Source of the DNA: Flavobacterium hydrocarbonoxydans
GTDB taxonomy: Bacteria > Bacteroidota > Bacteroidia > Flavobacteriales > Flavobacteriaceae
Reading direction: 5' to 3'
Assembly: GCF_009789235.1 (NCBI RefSeq)
Contig: NZ_WSTB01000011.1
Location: 1-64,000, forward strand
DNA: 64,000 nt
The first letter of the stretch is position 1. Each line of letters begins with the position of its first letter. The translations under genes and the position numbers were made by a program. This document shows positions 17,905 through 60,490 of the stretch, one piece after another. A model generated the notes under the pieces. That model worked only from the letters and a program-made list of their open reading frames with translations. It was not told where the DNA came from and searched no databases.

Positions 17905-18045
17905 ATAAATTCCAAAATTGAAATTCCAAATTCCAAAATCCAAAATCCAAATTCCAATAAAAAATTCCAAATTCCAATTTTCTAAAACCTGATTATTAAG
18001 TTTTTAAATTGGAATTTGGAATTTTAAAATTTGGAATTTAACCTA
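17905..18045. repeat. AAATTCCAA / TTGGAATTT repeat tract
   Basis: AAATTCCAA-type repeats run on one side (17905-17985) and TTGGAATTTGGAATTT on the other (about 18005-18040), so the tract can fold on itself. Shorter tracts of the same words lie at 23210-23262 and 39403-39436. All are in gaps beside gene 3' ends. Confidence 0.6.
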
Positions 18046-23121: not shown

Positions 23122-23187
23122 TTGTCATTCCGCAGGAATCTCTATCCGTAAAGAATTACCAGTTTTGAGATTCCTGCGGAATGACAA
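23122..23187. repeat. Perfect 21-bp inverted repeat between convergent genes
   Basis: TTGTCATTCCGCAGGAATC-TC at 23122-23142 is exactly mirrored at 23167-23187, and a T run follows at 23194. It can end transcription of menE and of the methyltransferase gene. A degenerate second copy is at 39323-39383. Confidence 0.8.
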
Positions 23188-53742: not shown

Positions 53743-55548
53743 TTAGAAGCAGTATTCGTTTTCTGCCACTAATTTATTGGTAATTGTTTCTCTCAATGCC
53801 ACAACATTTGGCAAGTTGGTGTATTTTGTAAAACGTTTTAATCCCATTAACATCATACGTTGTTCGTCACCTTCGGCAAAAGAAGCGATTCCTTCTTTTC
53901 CTCTTAAGTTTACGATATCTACTGCTTTGTATAAGTATAATTTTGCCATAGCAATTTGCTCTTGTACTTTAGCCTCACCTTGATTTTTGGCTAATTTTTC
54001 CGTTCTTAAAATAGTACTTTCTGCCATGTAGATTTCGATTAGGATATCAGAAGCAGCCATTAATAACTGTTGGTGAGAATCTAAATCTGGTCCGTATTTT
54101 TGAACAGCGCTACCAGCAACCATCAAGAAAACTTTCTTAAGATTAGCGATAATTCCTTTTTCTTCAGCAAATAATTCAGAGAAATCTGGAGTATCAAAAG
54201 AAGGAATTCCCATCAATTCTTCCTGAACTTTCATGGCTGGTCCAAGTAAATCAACATGACCTTTCATAGCCTTTTTGATTAACATTCCCACAGAAAGCAT
54301 TCTGTTGATTTCGTTTGTTCCTTCGTAGATTCTAGCGATACGGGCATCTCTCCAGGCACTTTCCATTGGAGTATCTTCTGAGAATCCCATTCCACCAAAA
54401 ACCTGAATTCCTTCGTCAGCACAATTTTGTACGTCTTCAGAAACCGCAACTTTCAGGATAGAACATTCGATAGCATATTCTTCAACCCCTTTTAATTCTG
54501 CTTCCTGGTGAGTAGCACCTTCCGCTTCACGAGCAGCAATTCTGTCTTCGATGTCTTTTGCAGCTCTGTATGATGCACTTTCACCAGCATAACAGCTGGT
54601 AGCCATTTCAGCTAATTTTGAACGGATAGCGCCAAAAGATGAAATTGCAGTATTAAACTGAATTCTTTCATTTGAATATTTTACTGCTCCGGTAGTTACT
54701 CTACGTTGTGCATCCAAACAAGCTGCAGCCAGTTTAATACGGCCAACGTTCAAAGCATTCATAGCAATTTTGAAACCGTTTCCTCTTTCAGACAACATGT
54801 TTTCAACAGGAACTTTTGTATCGTTGAAGAAAACCTGACGCGTAGAAGAAGCACGGATTCCTAATTTATGCTCTTCCTCATTCATAGAAATTCCGTTTGA
54901 AGGATCGTTTTCTACGATGAAACCTGTAATATTTTTGTCATCACCAATACGGGCAAAAACGATGAAAACGCTACAGAAACCTGCATTCGAAATCCACATT
55001 TTTTGTCCTGTAATTAAATAATGCGTTCCATCTTCTGATAAAACTGCTTTTGTTTTTCCAGAGTTGGCATCAGAACCAGCACCTGGCTCTGTCAAGCAAT
55101 AAGCTCCGAACCATTCTCCTGAAGCTAATTTAGGAACGTATTTTTTCTTTTGTTCTTCAGAACCATAAAGTGTAATTGGCATAGTACCAATTCCTGTATG
55201 CGCTCCAAAAGCAGTAGAGAAAGAACCTGTTGCTCCGGAAATATAATCGCAAACCAACATAGTTGATACGAATCCCATTCCTAATCCACCGTATTCTTCA
55301 GGAACTGCAACTCCAAGAAGTCCTAATTCACCCGCTTTACGCATAGAAGATTCTGTGTAAGCGTAGTCTTTTTTCTCAAAACGATCTTTATGTGCCCATA
55401 ATTCTTTGTCAACGAATTCTTTTACAGAATCACGCATCATTAACTGCTCTTCCGAGAAATCTTCTGGTGTAAAGATATCTTCACATTTTGTTTCTTTAAC
55501 TAAAAACTGACCACCACGGGTTACGTTTTTTTCGATTGTATCTGCCAT
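53743..55548 (-). CDS. fadE: Acyl-CoA dehydrogenase (FadE type)
   Basis: 601 aa, longer than classic ~380-aa enzymes because of a C-terminal helical extension, as in VLCAD and B. subtilis FadE. FAD/acyl-CoA motifs: YCLTEPGAGSDA, GQKMWISNAGF, FGGMGFSEDTPMESAWRDARIARIYEGTNEINR (split here at the catalytic-region YEGTNE). Catalyses the first oxidation of fatty acyl-CoA. Last gene of a minus-strand operon; an S23 cassette fills the gap to the upstream thiolase gene. The symbol is by analogy with the fadN-fadA-fadE operon of B. subtilis. Confidence 0.93.
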   Translation of the reverse strand: MADTIEKNVTRGGQFLVKETKCEDIFTPEDFSEEQLMMRDSVKEFVDKELWAHKDRFEKKDYAYTESSMRKAGELGLLGVAVPEEYGGLGMGFVSTMLVCDYISGATGSFSTAFGAHTGIGTMPITLYGSEEQKKKYVPKLASGEWFGAYCLTEPGAGSDANSGKTKAVLSEDGTHYLITGQKMWISNAGFCSVFIVFARIGDDKNITGFIVENDPSNGISMNEEEHKLGIRASSTRQVFFNDTKVPVENMLSERGNGFKIAMNALNVGRIKLAAACLDAQRRVTTGAVKYSNERIQFNTAISSFGAIRSKLAEMATSCYAGESASYRAAKDIEDRIAAREAEGATHQEAELKGVEEYAIECSILKVAVSEDVQNCADEGIQVFGGMGFSEDTPMESAWRDARIARIYEGTNEINRMLSVGMLIKKAMKGHVDLLGPAMKVQEELMGIPSFDTPDFSELFAEEKGIIANLKKVFLMVAGSAVQKYGPDLDSHQQLLMAASDILIEIYMAESTILRTEKLAKNQGEAKVQEQIAMAKLYLYKAVDIVNLRGKEGIASFAEGDEQRMMLMGLKRFTKYTNLPNVVALRETITNKLVAENEYCF

Positions 55549-55561
55549 TTTTTATTTTTTT

Positions 55562-56005
55562 AGAGAAAAGAAAATAGAATATAGAAAATAGATTTTTGAC
55601 TGAACTTATTTTAGTCCGTTTTGAAAACCCATTGTCATTCTTTGGAATTCTTCTATTTTAATTTCTAATTGGTTAAATTGTGTTTCGTTTATATATTTTC
55701 TATGCGTTGCAATCAATAATTGTGTAATGAGTTCAAATGAAGATCCAAGAGAAACGTCTAAGAAATGGCTGAAAGATTTATCTGTTCTGGATGAACCTTC
55801 AGCAATATTACTAGGCATTGAAACAGAACATCTGCTTATTTGAGAACTTAGATCATATCTTTCATGTTTCGGAAAGTCTAATAGTAAATCTGAGATATCA
55901 TTGGCAATTGAAATTCCAATCTGCCAAATCTTCAAATTCTTATAATTATGTCTCATCTCAATCTAAAGTCTTTATTCTATTCTCTATATTCTATTTTCTC
56001 TTTCT
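55562..56005. mobile_element. S23 cassette with terminal inverted repeats
   Basis: The left end (55562-55591) and right end (55977-56005) are inverted copies; the core AAAATAGAATATAGAAAATAG matches its partner with one difference over about 20 bp. The cassette encloses one four-helix-bundle gene and exactly spans from the thiolase stop codon to 13 bases before the acyl-CoA dehydrogenase start. The structure is like the stem-bounded intervening sequences found in 23S rRNA genes. Confidence 0.65.
55606..55956 (-). CDS. Four-helix bundle protein (S23 / rRNA-intervening-sequence family)
   Basis: 116 aa. NLKIWQIGISIANDISDLL, YDLSSQISRCSVSMPSNIAEGSSR and SLGSSFELITQLLIA are family hallmarks. These proteins are encoded either in 23S rRNA intervening sequences or as free cassettes and form pentamers; their function is unknown. 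This one is on the same strand as the surrounding beta-oxidation operon and is enclosed by terminal inverted repeats. Confidence 0.92.
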   Translation of the reverse strand: MRHNYKNLKIWQIGISIANDISDLLLDFPKHERYDLSSQISRCSVSMPSNIAEGSSRTDKSFSHFLDVSLGSSFELITQLLIATHRKYINETQFNQLEIKIEEFQRMTMGFQNGLK

Positions 56006-57185
56006 ATAAAACTTCGTAAATCCCCGCAGAACCCTGTCCAGTTCCCACACACATGCTCACAATTCCGTATTTGTTACCTCTGCGTTTCATCTCATCAAAT
56101 AACTGAACAGAAAGTTTAGCTCCTGTACATCCCAGAGGGTGACCTAAAGCGATTGCTCCACCGTTTACGTTTACAATTTCTGGGTTTATATTTAACTCGC
56201 GAGTTACTGCTAAAGCTTGTGAAGCAAAAGCCTCGTTTAATTCAATTAACTCAATATCGTTCAATGTTAAACCAGCTTGTTTCAACGCTTTCGGAATTGC
56301 TTTTACAGGACCGATACCCATAATTCTTGGCTCAACACCAGAAGAAGCAAAATTTACTAATCTGGCGATTGGTTCAAGATTTAATTCTTTAACCATGTCT
56401 TCGCTCATGATTAAAACAAAAGCAGCACCATCACTCATTTGTGATGAGTTACCTGCTGTTACACTTCCGTCAGCAGCAAAAACGGGTCTTAATCCAGATA
56501 AAGCAGCAACAGATGTTCCCGCTCTTGGACCTTCGTCTTGTTTTACAACGTATGATTTAGTTTCTTTTTTACCATTTTCATTGATGAAAGTCTGCTCAAC
56601 AGTAATCGGAACGATTTGCTTGTCAAATTTCCCTTCAGCTTGTGCTTTCAAAGCTTTCATATGTGAGTTGTATGCAAACTCATCCTGATCTTCTCTTGAT
56701 ATTTTGTATTGGTTGGCAACCGCTTCTGCAGTTAAACCCATTCCCCAATAGTAATCTTCGTGACCTGCCGCAGCAACTTTATAATCCGGAGTTGGTTTGT
56801 AACCTCCCATCGGAATAAAACTCATGCTTTCAGCTCCACCAGCGATGATACAATCTGCCATTCCTGATTGAATTTTAGCAGTTGCCATTCCGATAGTTTC
56901 TAGTCCAGATGCGCAATAACGGTTCACCGTAACACCAGGAACATCTTCTACCTTTAATCCCATCAAAGAGATCAAACGTCCAACATTAAGCCCTTGTTCT
57001 GCTTCTGGCATGGCGTTTCCTACCATCACGTCATCGATACGTTTTTTATCAAAATCAGGCAACTCATCCATCATAAACTGAATGGTTTCTGCTGCTAATT
57101 CATCAGGTCTTTTAAATCTAAAAACCCCTTTTGGTGCTTTTCCTACTGCGGTTCTATATGCTTTTACTATGTAAGCTGTTTTCAT
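56004..57185 (-). CDS. fadA: Acetyl-CoA acyltransferase (thiolase)
   Basis: 393 aa. The thiolase signatures are present: VNRYCASGLETIGMA (nucleophilic Cys), NGGAIALGHPLGCTGAK (active-site His) and GIVSMCVGTGQGSAGIYEVL (second Cys). It makes the last, thiolytic step of beta-oxidation. It lies between the FadN-like gene and the acyl-CoA dehydrogenase gene. Its TAG stop codon overlaps the right inverted repeat of the S23 cassette. Confidence 0.95.
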   Translation of the reverse strand: MKTAYIVKAYRTAVGKAPKGVFRFKRPDELAAETIQFMMDELPDFDKKRIDDVMVGNAMPEAEQGLNVGRLISLMGLKVEDVPGVTVNRYCASGLETIGMATAKIQSGMADCIIAGGAESMSFIPMGGYKPTPDYKVAAAGHEDYYWGMGLTAEAVANQYKISREDQDEFAYNSHMKALKAQAEGKFDKQIVPITVEQTFINENGKKETKSYVVKQDEGPRAGTSVAALSGLRPVFAADGSVTAGNSSQMSDGAAFVLIMSEDMVKELNLEPIARLVNFASSGVEPRIMGIGPVKAIPKALKQAGLTLNDIELIELNEAFASQALAVTRELNINPEIVNVNGGAIALGHPLGCTGAKLSVQLFDEMKRRGNKYGIVSMCVGTGQGSAGIYEVL

Positions 57186-57213: not shown

Positions 57214-57534
57214 AGGTCGCTCCTAAGGAGCTAAATTGCCGTTTAAATTATATTTTCTACAAACAGTTTGCCTCTACGAGGCTATTATTAAAGTCCATGG
57301 CCATTTCATCTCTTCTAAACCTGCCTCGAAGAAGCAATTTTTATAGAATTAAATCATTATGTTTCCAAGAAGTTAAATTGCCATTTAAATCATGGTTTTC
57401 AACAAACAGTTAATCTCTGCGAGATTATTTAGACACATATATAAATTTTTATTTCTACTAAAACTTGCCTCGGAGAGGCAAACTGTTTGTAGCATTAATT
57501 TAGGTATGTGATATAAGCTCCTTAGGAGCGACCT
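57214..57534. repeat. REP palindrome copies downstream of the transposase
   Basis: Three ~70-bp units plus a partial one: 57214-57282, 57363-57426 and an inverted unit 57467-57534, with a fragment near 57320-57345. Each joins a GCTCCTnnGGAGC palindrome to a GCCTCTnCGAGGC palindrome through a conserved link containing TCTACAAACAGTT. They fill the 368-bp gap between thiolase and transposase; no other gene is seen there. Confidence 0.8.
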
Positions 57535-57553
57535 GTTATTAACAATCTGTATG

Positions 57554-58015
57554 TTATTCAATCCAATCAAACAAATATTTCTCTTCGTAATCAATTTCAA
57601 ATTTTTCTAAAAATGAAAGATACTCTTCTTTAAATGTCTGTTTCTTATGGTTTTCTTCCTGATTTAAAATGTATTTAATCACATTCTCTAAATGACTTTT
57701 GGAATAAGAGAAAGCTCCATATCCTTCCTGCCAATTAAACTTCATGTTAATCCATTTGCTGTCATTAATAAATTTCGAAGAACCTGCTTTAATATCTCTA
57801 ACCAAATCTGATATTGAAAGGTTTGGTTTCATTCCGACCAAAATATGAACGTGATCTGGCATAGCGAAAATGGCTAATAATTTTTGTCCTCTATTTGAAA
57901 TAATACCTGTAATAAATTTGTGCAGTTCTTCACGATTCTCTTTTTTAATTAAATTTTCTCTGCCTTTTACAGCAAAAACGATTTGAATATAAATTTGCGA
58001 ATACGTATTTGCCAT
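57554..58015 (-). CDS. REP-associated tyrosine (Y1) transposase, IS200/IS605 type
   Basis: 153 aa. The HUH motif is MPDHVHILVG (H55 and H57), and the catalytic tyrosine is Y115 in IKYILNQEENH. WQEGYGAFSYSKS is a family signature. It cuts single-stranded DNA at hairpins. No tnpB partner; instead it is flanked by REP palindromes on both sides, so it fits the domesticated RAYT class. Same strand as the fad operon. Confidence 0.93.
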   Translation of the reverse strand: MANTYSQIYIQIVFAVKGRENLIKKENREELHKFITGIISNRGQKLLAIFAMPDHVHILVGMKPNLSISDLVRDIKAGSSKFINDSKWINMKFNWQEGYGAFSYSKSHLENVIKYILNQEENHKKQTFKEEYLSFLEKFEIDYEEKYLFDWIE

Positions 58016-58029
58016 AATTCATTTTTAAA

Positions 58030-58099
58030 CAGGTCGCTCCTCCGGAGCTGAATCAAAAATCATTTCATTTTCTACAAACAGTTAACCTCTCCGAGGTTA
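58030..58099. repeat. REP unit upstream of the transposase
   Basis: The same two-palindrome unit (GCTCCTCCGGAGC ... TCTACAAACAGTT ... CCTCTCCGAGG) as the copies at 57214-57534. It ends at the stop codon of the FadN-like gene. Confidence 0.8.
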
Positions 58100-60490
58100 T
58101 TAGTTTCTCAAAGGTTTCCCTTTAGTTAACATATACTGAATTCTTTCCAATGTTTTTCTCTCTGTACAAAGAGATAAGAAAGCTTCACGTTCGATATCTA
58201 ATAAATATTGTTCAGATACTAAAGTTGCTTCAGATAAATCACCTCCGGCCATTACATAAGCCAGTTTGTTAGCGATTTTTTTATCGTGTTCCGAAATGTA
58301 TTTTCCAGCTTCCATTTGATCTGTTCCTACTAAGAACATTCCAAGTGCCTGTTTACCTAAAACCTTAACATCGGTTCTTCTGATAGGTTGTGTATAACCC
58401 GCTTCAGCCATTAACAACGCATGTTTTTTAGCTTCAGCAATCTGACGATCTTTGTTTACTACGATAACATCTTTTCCATGTTGAAGAAGTCCAGTATCAA
58501 AAGCTTCGTAACCCGAAGTAGATACTTTAGCCATAGCGATTGTCAAGAAATATTCCTGAAGAACGTTCAATTCCACATCGTTTTTGCGGAATAAATCAGA
58601 AGCTCTTAAAGCCATTTCTTTAGATCCACCACCACCAGGAAGTACACCAACACCAAATTCAACTAATCCCATGTACGTTTCTGCAGCAGCAACCACTTTA
58701 TCAGCATGTAAGCTCATTTCGCATCCACCACCAAAAGTCATTCCGTGTGGTGCCACTACAACAGGAATAGAAGAGTAACGAACGCGCATCATCGTGTCCT
58801 GGAACATTTTGATCGCCATATTCAATTCGTCATATTCCTGCTCAACCGCCATCATAAAAATCATTCCGATATTAGCACCAACAGAGAAATTCGCTGCCTG
58901 ATTACCAATAACCAAACCTTGATATTCTTTTTCAGATAAGTCGATTGCTTTATTGATAGCCTGAAGTACATCGCCACCAATAGTATTCATTTTAGATTGG
59001 AATTCTAAGTTCAAAATTCCATCTCCTAAGTCCTGAATGATGGCACCGCTATTACTCCAAACTTTTTTGCTTTCGCGAATGTTGTTCAGAATAATGAATG
59101 AATCTTGTCCAGGTACTTTATTTTGAGATTTTGTTGGAATATTATAGAAATAAGTAGCTCCTTCTTTTACAGAATAGAAACTTTCGCTTCCAGAAGCCAA
59201 CATTTCAGTAACCCATGCAGCAGGCTCAAGACCTTCTGCTTTCATGATTTCGATTCCGTTGGCAACACCAATTGCATCCCAAATTTCGAATGGACCATTT
59301 TCCCATCCAAAACCAGCTTTCATGGCATCATCAATTTTATATAATTCGTCTGAGATTTCAGGAATTCTGTTGGACACATAAGCAAACATTCCGGCGAAAC
59401 TCTTGCGGTAGAATTCTCCCGCTTTGTCTTTTCCTTTCACCAAAACTTTAAAACGATTGATGGGTTTATCGATAGTTTTAGTTAGTTCAAGTGTAGCAAA
59501 ATTTGCTTTTTTAGCAGCACGGTATTCTAATGTATCTAAGTCAAGAGAAAGAATATCTCTATCTACTTTTTTGTAAAAACCCTGACCAGTTTTGCTTCCC
59601 AACCAATTGTTTTCCATCATTTTTGAAACAAATTCAGGAAGTTTAAACAATTCGTGTTGTTCGTCGTTCGGGCAGTTTTCATAAATACCGTTGGCAACGT
59701 GTACCAAAGTATCTAAACCAACCACGTCAACAGTACGGAAAGTAGCCGATTTTGGACGACCAATTACCGGACCAGTCAATTTATCCACTTCTTCAATCGT
59801 TAATCCCATTTCTTTAACCAAATGAAACAAACTCTGAATTCCGTAAATACCAATTCTGTTTCCAATAAACGCTGGAGTATCTTTGGCAACAACCGAAGTT
59901 TTTCCTAAAAATTTAGATCCGTATTCATTTAAGAAATCCAACACTTCAGTCGAAGTTTTTGGACCAGGAATAATTTCAAATAATTTTAAGTAACGCGCAG
60001 GGTTAAAAAAGTGGGTTCCGCAGAAGTGTTGTTGAAAATCTTCGCTTCTTCCTTCGCTCATAAAATGAATCGGAATACCAGAAGTATTAGAAGTAACCAA
60101 AGTTCCCGGCTTACGGAATTTCTCAATTTGTTCAAATACTAATTTTTTGATATCCAAACGCTCCACTACAACCTCGATAATCCAATCTACATTGGCAATT
60201 TTTGCCATGTCATCGGTCGTATTTCCAGTCGTGATTCTGCTTGCGAATTTCTGACTGTAAATAGGTGATGGTTTCGATTTTAATGAGTTCGCCAAGTGCT
60301 CGTTTACCAATCGGTTGCGAACAGCTTTACTTTCAAGCGTTAATCCTTTTTTAGCTTCAGCTTCTGTCAACTCGCGTGGTACGATGTCAAGCAGTAAAAC
60401 TTCAACACCAATATTGGCAAAATGGCAAGCTATTCCTGAACCCATAATTCCGGATCCAATAACAGCAACTTTTTTAATTGTGCGTTTCAT
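58100..60490 (-). CDS. fadN: 3-hydroxyacyl-CoA dehydrogenase/enoyl-CoA hydratase fusion (FadN-like)
   Basis: 796 aa. The dehydrogenase half comes first: VAVIGSGIMGSGIACHFANIG (NAD-binding), VTSNTSGIP, HFFNPARYLKLFEIIPG and DTPAFIGNRIG. The hydratase/isomerase half follows from about residue 470, with VGANIGMIFM and HGMTFGGGCEM...GLVEFGVGVLPGGGG containing the catalytic Glu loops. This order and length match B. subtilis FadN, not E. coli FadB. It performs the middle two steps of beta-oxidation. It follows the MarR gene by 48 bases. Confidence 0.93.
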   Translation of the reverse strand: MKRTIKKVAVIGSGIMGSGIACHFANIGVEVLLLDIVPRELTEAEAKKGLTLESKAVRNRLVNEHLANSLKSKPSPIYSQKFASRITTGNTTDDMAKIANVDWIIEVVVERLDIKKLVFEQIEKFRKPGTLVTSNTSGIPIHFMSEGRSEDFQQHFCGTHFFNPARYLKLFEIIPGPKTSTEVLDFLNEYGSKFLGKTSVVAKDTPAFIGNRIGIYGIQSLFHLVKEMGLTIEEVDKLTGPVIGRPKSATFRTVDVVGLDTLVHVANGIYENCPNDEQHELFKLPEFVSKMMENNWLGSKTGQGFYKKVDRDILSLDLDTLEYRAAKKANFATLELTKTIDKPINRFKVLVKGKDKAGEFYRKSFAGMFAYVSNRIPEISDELYKIDDAMKAGFGWENGPFEIWDAIGVANGIEIMKAEGLEPAAWVTEMLASGSESFYSVKEGATYFYNIPTKSQNKVPGQDSFIILNNIRESKKVWSNSGAIIQDLGDGILNLEFQSKMNTIGGDVLQAINKAIDLSEKEYQGLVIGNQAANFSVGANIGMIFMMAVEQEYDELNMAIKMFQDTMMRVRYSSIPVVVAPHGMTFGGGCEMSLHADKVVAAAETYMGLVEFGVGVLPGGGGSKEMALRASDLFRKNDVELNVLQEYFLTIAMAKVSTSGYEAFDTGLLQHGKDVIVVNKDRQIAEAKKHALLMAEAGYTQPIRRTDVKVLGKQALGMFLVGTDQMEAGKYISEHDKKIANKLAYVMAGGDLSEATLVSEQYLLDIEREAFLSLCTERKTLERIQYMLTKGKPLRN

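Follow-up and report, generated by a model that had tools for sequence, protein, structure and literature searches.

We asked why a gene for an S23/IVP protein, enclosed by inverted ends, occupies the gap between two genes of a beta-oxidation operon in Flavobacterium hydrocarbonoxydans, and what kind of genetic unit this arrangement represents. The window analysed here is the whole stretch of 64,000 nucleotides (contig NZ_WSTB01000011.1, positions 1 to 64,000), and its features of importance for this question were the following.

53743..55548, reverse strand: acyl-CoA dehydrogenase, fadE-like, the downstream host gene (matches to Acyl-CoA_dh families)
about 55558..55592, reverse strand: downstream inverted arm (3' of S23), its terminus 9 nt short of the fadE start
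55606..55956, reverse strand: S23/IVP four-helix-bundle gene, PF05635, 116 aa (open reading frame; PF05635 match, E 6.5e-31)
55976..56011, reverse strand: upstream inverted arm (5' of S23), a heptad array of AGA plus 4 nt, overlapping the fadA stop codon TAG
56004..57185, reverse strand: thiolase, fadA-like, the upstream host gene (Thiolase_N and Thiolase_C matches)
57554..58015, reverse strand: Y1_Tnp gene (PF01797), IS200-like and probably REP-associated, in the fadB–fadA gap
58100..60490, reverse strand: 3-hydroxyacyl-CoA dehydrogenase/enoyl-CoA hydratase, fadB-like, of the host operon (domain matches)
17921..18039, no strand assigned: nested solo inverted heptad arrays of AAATTCC, without S23, the word being that of the ends of another S23 locus of the same genome, L007 (repeat scan)

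The original prediction had described the S23 gene as bounded by inverted ends, and this was borne out, with 33 of 36 columns identical and one gap in a local alignment of the two ends, and with a score of 55 that none of 200 shuffles (mean 19) attained. Each arm was an imperfect array of 7-nt units, such as AGAAAAT AGAATAT AGAGAAT AGA, both arms reading inwards as runs of words of this kind, with an identity at lag 7 of 0.85, as in tandem repeats of the STRR type. The cassette also filled the operon gap as had been proposed, one arm containing the fadA stop codon (TAG at 56004–56006) and the other nearly reaching the fadE start; the distance to that start (55548) was 9 nt, however, and the 13 nt given earlier would apply only with the end placed at 55562. 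The arms abut or overlap the host stop and start, and the comparison with S23-less gaps, among which no empty site of a close relative fixed both junctions, established no target-site duplication. The protein scored 107.1 bits against the PF05635 model, the curated cut-off being 33.8, and is thus a member of the S23/IVP family. Apart from its gene, the cassette contained no open reading frame of 80 aa or more and none for a transposase or recombinase, and no reverse transcriptase was found among the identified neighbours (fad genes, marR and Y1_Tnp). A phage collection searched with the window S23 gave no match, and an Rfam search of 13 S23 loci gave none inside the cassettes, the only matches being Flavo-1 (at L001) and an S16 leader (at L007), both outside.

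The 7/8-nt word structure of the ends, its link to the protein and the breadth of its occurrence are additions beyond the original prediction, which had pointed to other S23 copies with the same kind of ends as a check. Such copies exist. In the same genome, eight PF05635 matches were found, seven of which had inverted ends beyond all 200 shuffles (L004 being the exception), with words that were all different: CTGAGGTT, TTAGTCC, AGAAAAT, AATTAGAT, GTTGTGA, AAATTCC and TTTAGAT. One of these loci, L008 (G000:C38:256712-256873), combines a weak S23 match and an internal TGA with persisting inverted TTTAGAT arrays, and looks like a decaying copy. Across the genus, 73 of 95 S23 loci had an inverted-end score of at least 30, compared with 6 of 66 control open reading frames of S23-like size from 400 kb of the same genome, and 58 of 95 compared with 3 of 66 scored at least 34. 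These 95 were the scorable loci out of 97, own copies included (L049 and L067, at contig ends, were left out), and were top-scoring family matches rather than a random sample; the cut-off of 30 was chosen on this set among 26, 28, 30 and 34 and was kept for all later sets. The remaining 22 loci, L004 included, fell below it. Of these 73 loci, 65 had 7 or 8 as their best period, and a recount with boundaries taken from the family match again gave 73 of 95, with 38 loci peaking at lag 7 and 27 at lag 8. Arm identity in the 73 loci was 0.45–0.47 at lag 7 and 0.42–0.44 at lag 8; the remaining lags, to a maximum of 13, gave 0.25–0.33, with 0.33 expected, and neither the S23 genes nor the outer flanks of these loci had any peak at lag 7/8.

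Further sets gave similar results. In named genomes, mostly Bacteroidota, that were found by S23 profile search, 47 of 78 loci among the matches listed scored at least 30, 46 of them with period 7/8; this set was without L218 (short flank), and without L173, which is L082 of the genus set and scored below 30, the count was 47 of 77. Searching with the L007 protein, we found inverted ends at 24 of 29 further loci (L227, being the own L007 again, was left out). A class-level sample had 17 of 25 loci at or above 30, all 17 with period 7/8, omitting the truncated L322, L325, L327 and L330, or 17 of 24 without L309, which is L039 and scored below 30. This sample counts as a replicate within Bacteroidota only, because the search from G061 gave a genome already in the genus set (L309 = L039). 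The record of L211 in G061, titled Limnohabitans, grouped as Bacteroidota in that search and is probably a mislabelled metagenome-assembled genome. Outside Bacteroidota, 11 of 12 S23 loci on cyanobacterial plasmids (12 of the 28 matching records) beat all 50 shuffles, with arms of repeats such as GGGAGTA, GGGAACA and GTCAGAA, and in Patescibacteria 4 of 7 loci, from two genomes, had inverted ends by the shuffle test.

Comparing words among 147 loci scoring at least 30 (L292, having no arms, was left out), we found that the word follows the S23 protein lineage rather than the place. For pairs at different sites, word similarity was 0.40 when the proteins were less than 30% identical or gave no match, 0.44 at 40–50% identity, 0.48 at 50–60%, 0.68 at 60–70% (n = 70) and 1.05 from 70% upwards (n = 73), whereas it was 0.47 (n = 114) where two loci shared a site but had proteins less than 30% identical. 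The window type of S23 with AGA words was likewise found at other junctions, namely between dapB and signal peptidase I (lepB) in L149 and, by likeness, L150; between proB and N-acetylornithine carbamoyltransferase (argF-like) in L152; and between an hmgA-like gene, its match being under the model cut-off, and hpd in L154 and, by likeness, L158, all five loci being from records titled as other lineages. The hmgA–hpd junction of the own genome carried another S23, whose word also differed. In G040, two S23 copies with proteins 97% alike were located in the successive gaps marR–fadB and fadB–fadA. Of the proposed mobility without a transposase, the finding of the same protein and word at several junctions, with no transposase, was thereby upheld, and the movement itself is what we infer from it.

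With regard to the protein, an AF2 model of the window S23 (pLDDT 96.6) had four helices and its best structural matches were 2gsc (TM up to 0.95) and 2rld (TM about 0.82), four-helix bundles of the same kind, followed by Avd 4dwl; the Avd structures 4dwl and 8ub7 matched with TM about 0.8 at a sequence identity of 9–14% for the matched Avd/DGR chains. The deposited entries 2gsc and 4dwl that were matched have five chains apiece. The S23 protein thus shares the fold of Avd, a partner in the ribonucleoprotein of diversity-generating retroelements; the differences are this low identity and the lack of a reverse transcriptase in the S23 cassette.

Taken together, we consider it probable, at roughly 0.6, that the window feature is a copy of a widespread mobile cassette without transposase, consisting of an S23/IVP gene within inverted arrays of 7/8-nt words that S23 would recognize as its own, and akin to the intervening sequences (IVSs) of 23S rRNA. 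In this mechanism, S23, as an oligomer and a fold relative of Avd, would bind nucleic acid at the repeats of its own word, and word recognition could hold the two cassette ends together. Recognition of the ends may in turn drive or steer the copying by which the cassette reaches new operon junctions beside stop codons, and word and protein would co-evolve such that both arms change together. The similarity of left to right arms was 32.6 within a locus, 23.8 between orthologues and 17.0 between unrelated sites, and the within-locus likeness exceeded that of the opposite arms of orthologues in 59 of 78 loci. Several observations speak against this explanation. The left arms of orthologues often aligned better with each other than left with right, being more alike in 59 of 78 loci, with the within-locus pair ahead in only 19 of 78. 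Many S23 clades were fixed at one site throughout the genus (87 loci, after 8 of 95 proteins outside 100–160 aa had been dropped), and movement was deduced rather than caught. The 22 genus loci below the cut-off, the lack of an established target-site duplication, the lack of solo copies of the window word in 464 kb of the own genome and the AAATTCC counts in L007-less genomes, the last two described below, likewise count against it. Finally, the linkage of word and protein would also be compatible with ends and gene being inherited together passively, with no binding involved.

Of the alternatives, one relates directly to the IVSs. Intervening sequences with an S23/IVP open reading frame occur in 23S rRNA of, for example, Coxiella and Leptospira. 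They have S23 between complementary ends, and one of them, described in PMC4990558, measures about 430 nt and has, beside its S23 open reading frame, heptameric repeats (GACAGAT) as well as an inverted stem of about 28 bp at its termini; it was cut by RNase III in vitro. The likeness to IVSs drawn in the original prediction is therefore apt, the window cassette also having its S23 frame within complementary ends, but it lies in the fadA–fadE gap of a protein-coding operon and not in a 23S rRNA helix, and each lineage of such cassettes has its own word. The arms could be proposed to pair in the polycistronic mRNA and be cut by RNase III, so that the operon transcript is split and the message for S23 set free, with the pairing under selection. 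As RNA, the window arms gave -39.0 kcal/mol compared with -15.3 +/- 3.1 for shuffles, so that the stem could form, and S23 was co-oriented with both neighbours in 80 of 87 loci and 26 of 30 site groups (about 0.30–0.35 expected by chance, P = 7e-9; the groups derive from flank DNA similarity, by which distant orthologous sites may be split, and the neighbour was picked mechanically as the longest open reading frame, making a few neighbours or distances wrong, e.g. L001 and L002). Mismatches on the S23 strand, however, did not favour G-U over A-C (120 compared with 149 in 144 loci; 55 compared with 88 when the genus set was delimited by the family match), although the L007-type set alone leaned the other way with 27 compared with 18. 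Because G-U was not enriched over A-C, selection for RNA pairing is unsupported, and we rejected RNA-level selection on the arms, there being no G-U excess overall across the three locus sets. Of the earlier claim that the ends could pair in the operon mRNA, the possible stem thus stands, while pairing and cutting as that which keeps the ends is not supported. Two cyanobacterial cassettes, L287 and L291, were moreover antisense to their neighbours, and pairing alone would leave the 7/8-nt periodicity unexplained, binding sites being a simpler account than a stem for evenly spaced repeated words. We consequently hold IVS-like processing to be unlikely as an explanation for the ends.

Besides being co-oriented with both neighbours, the cassettes were positioned closely with regard to host stop and start codons, and both features count in favour of the mobile cassette, as do the patchy presence at two junctions and the solo arrays described below. 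Among 62 loci that had scorable arms and whose upstream gene was co-directional, the left arm began at most 11 nt from that gene's stop in 47; among 62 whose downstream gene was co-directional, the right arm ended -7 to +20 nt from its start in 41. When the left arm lay within 15 nt of the stop, this stop was TAG in 31 of 54 loci, compared with 35 of 248 open reading frames (P = 1.5e-10), and in 12 of 19 when counted by site (P = 5e-6); the array therefore often supplies the host stop codon. Cyanobacterial plasmid cassettes (L287, L293, L294 and L295) were seen in nrdB–nrdA (antisense), cas6–cas4 and cas10–cmr3 gaps. The 18 S23 genes described in cas loci, often with cas4 or cas6 (PMC3936711), fit with such insertion into operon gaps, as do the cas6/cas4 and cas10/cmr3 cases found here.

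Long residence at a junction could instead mean that S23 is a domesticated regulator, binding the arrays and tuning the host operon or itself, with fixed sites reflecting function and not selfish spread. The S23 gene is under purifying selection, with dN/dS of 0.03–0.09 in 15 orthologue pairs of the fad site at dS from 0.5 upwards, and some lineages have stayed long at the same junctions, both of which agree with such a role. Presence was patchy, however. Of 59 genomes of the genus in which fadE was matched, 30, the own genome among them, could be read at the fadA–fadE junction, and S23 was found in this gap in 19 of the 30 (18 strong and one partial, L020), with an inverted-end score of at least 30 in 17 of the 19. 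The other 11 had no S23, so that the gene is not at this place in all relatives, and in two of these fadA and fadE were directly adjacent as anticipated, with gaps of 11 and 20 nt. At the hmgA–hpd junction, S23 was found in 4 of 27 readable genomes (the short L340, L345 and L349 were left out). The neighbours, furthermore, vary by site (fad, dapB–lepB, proB–argF and hmgA–hpd-like), and the fadB–fadA gap, which here holds the Y1_Tnp gene, carries an S23 cassette in some relatives (L069, L160, L168, L170 and L178). A domesticated regulator thus appears quite unlikely to us.

The S23-less gaps had contents of their own. A TTGTCATTCCG hairpin is located at 23122–23187 of the window, and similar elements occupy the fadA–fadE gap of S23-less relatives (L015–L018). 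In L338, the hmgA–hpd gap holds a lone AGA heptad array and lacks S23; the array appears to be what is left of a lost cassette. Three hmgA–hpd gaps contained CGCAAAG hairpins, and solo CGCAAAG hairpins were noted at L359, L361 and L364.

Arrays without S23 bear on a further alternative, namely that the heptamers are host repeats grown by slippage in operon gaps, for reasons of G-quadruplexes or expression, between which S23 merely landed. Heptamers with no reported link to S23 are indeed described, GGGNATC in Xanthomonas and Nostoc (PMC4692102) and TAACTGA in Beggiatoaceae (PMC4679880), and the own genome has solo arrays. In 464 kb of it, solo matches to the own arms of L005, L007 and L008 numbered 5 to 18, and in the whole genome AAATTCC, the L007 word, had 107 copies compared with none for the reversed control. 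The median number of AAATTCC copies was 26 in genomes with an L007 orthologue (11 of 61) and 1.5 in those without (P = 2.7e-5), a link that was weak among genomes of at least 4.5 Mb (P = 0.06), and the word was also frequent in three L007-less genomes (51, 37 and 35 copies). Among 16 solo hairpins of such words examined, six lay within 20 nt of both neighbours, five between co-directional genes. We nonetheless regard the host-repeat explanation as improbable: it is weakened by the word tracking S23 lineage across sites, the words vary by lineage with many not being G-runs, and the period shifts with protein family, being 6 in some L007-type genes, 7/8 in most S23 and most often 9 in PF13366. 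A G-quadruplex account was rejected as being at odds with the AT-rich words, AGAAAAT and AAATTCC for example.

As a last alternative, an HUH transposase such as the neighbouring REP-associated Y1_Tnp could act in trans and move the cassettes as passive cargo. Y1_Tnp and its REP-like repeats do belong to the same operon, at a distance of one gene, but these repeats (AGGTCGCTCC, CCTCGGAGAGGC) are unlike heptad arrays and S23 words track S23 lineage, and we hold this alternative to be very improbable. The Y1_Tnp gene together with its REP-like inverted repeats (AGGTCGCTCCTAAGGAGCT, CCTCGGAGAGGC) occupies 57214–58096. REP/RAYT pairs are nevertheless a known system of the same logic, a transposase with scattered short repeats. 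The S23 cassette resembles them in having a gene within inverted short elements and scattered solo copies (own words of L005, L007 and L008), and differs in that it encodes no Y1 transposase, that its ends are tandem 7/8-mers and that the window word was not found as a solo copy in the 464 kb analysed of the 5.05 Mb own genome.

The likeness to published heptanucleotide repeats of the STRR type, which also have 7-nt units in intergenic DNA, extends to their placement. The GGGNATC repeats are described as lying mostly between aligned open reading frames, with the G-rich strand either in sense orientation close to the stop or in antisense close to the following start (PMC4692102), which is the placement of the S23 arms found here. 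As inverted pairs, there are 70–75 in Xanthomonas and few in Nostoc, and the repeats are described as generally having no association with mobile elements (PMC4692102). The main texts of PMC4692102 and PMC4679880 make no mention of S23 or of a helix bundle, and our literature search, covering open-access journal papers, found no link between S23 and heptamer arrays.

A second protein family was noticed because the best-scoring control open reading frame was a PF13366 gene (L128:15842-16489). Genes of PF13366 (PDDEXK_3, GxxExxY) in the same genus had inverted word arrays, with 23 of 28 loci scoring at least 30 (L257–L286, with the truncated L261 and L263 left out). Of these 23, 13 had their best lag at 9 and the remaining ten at various lags from 4 to 12, and the words included ACACGGATT and CGCAAAGA. 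These cassettes have a plan similar to that of S23 with an unrelated protein family.

Returning to the mobile cassette as the preferred reading, a wider version of it can be put forward as a tentative proposal. S23/IVP proteins might be sequence-specific nucleic-acid-binding, Avd-like barrels that each read the word of their lineage and spread their cassette at stop codons without a transposase. The IVSs would then be a special case in rRNA, the heptamers of Xanthomonas, cyanobacteria and Beggiatoaceae would be footprints of such cassettes, and PF13366 would be a parallel with words of about 9 nt.

The cassette family may explain the origin of puzzling heptamer repeats in bacteria. If the proposal is true, the purpose of S23/IVP and the origin of heptanucleotide repeats in operon gaps, both long unexplained, would share one answer, and each S23 lineage would predict its own binding word. 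Operon junctions would also have been widely shaped in Bacteroidota by these cassettes, since PF05635 genes were found in 225 of 295 sampled genomes of the class, and finding these ends on plasmids of cyanobacteria suggests that the process is not confined to Bacteroidota.
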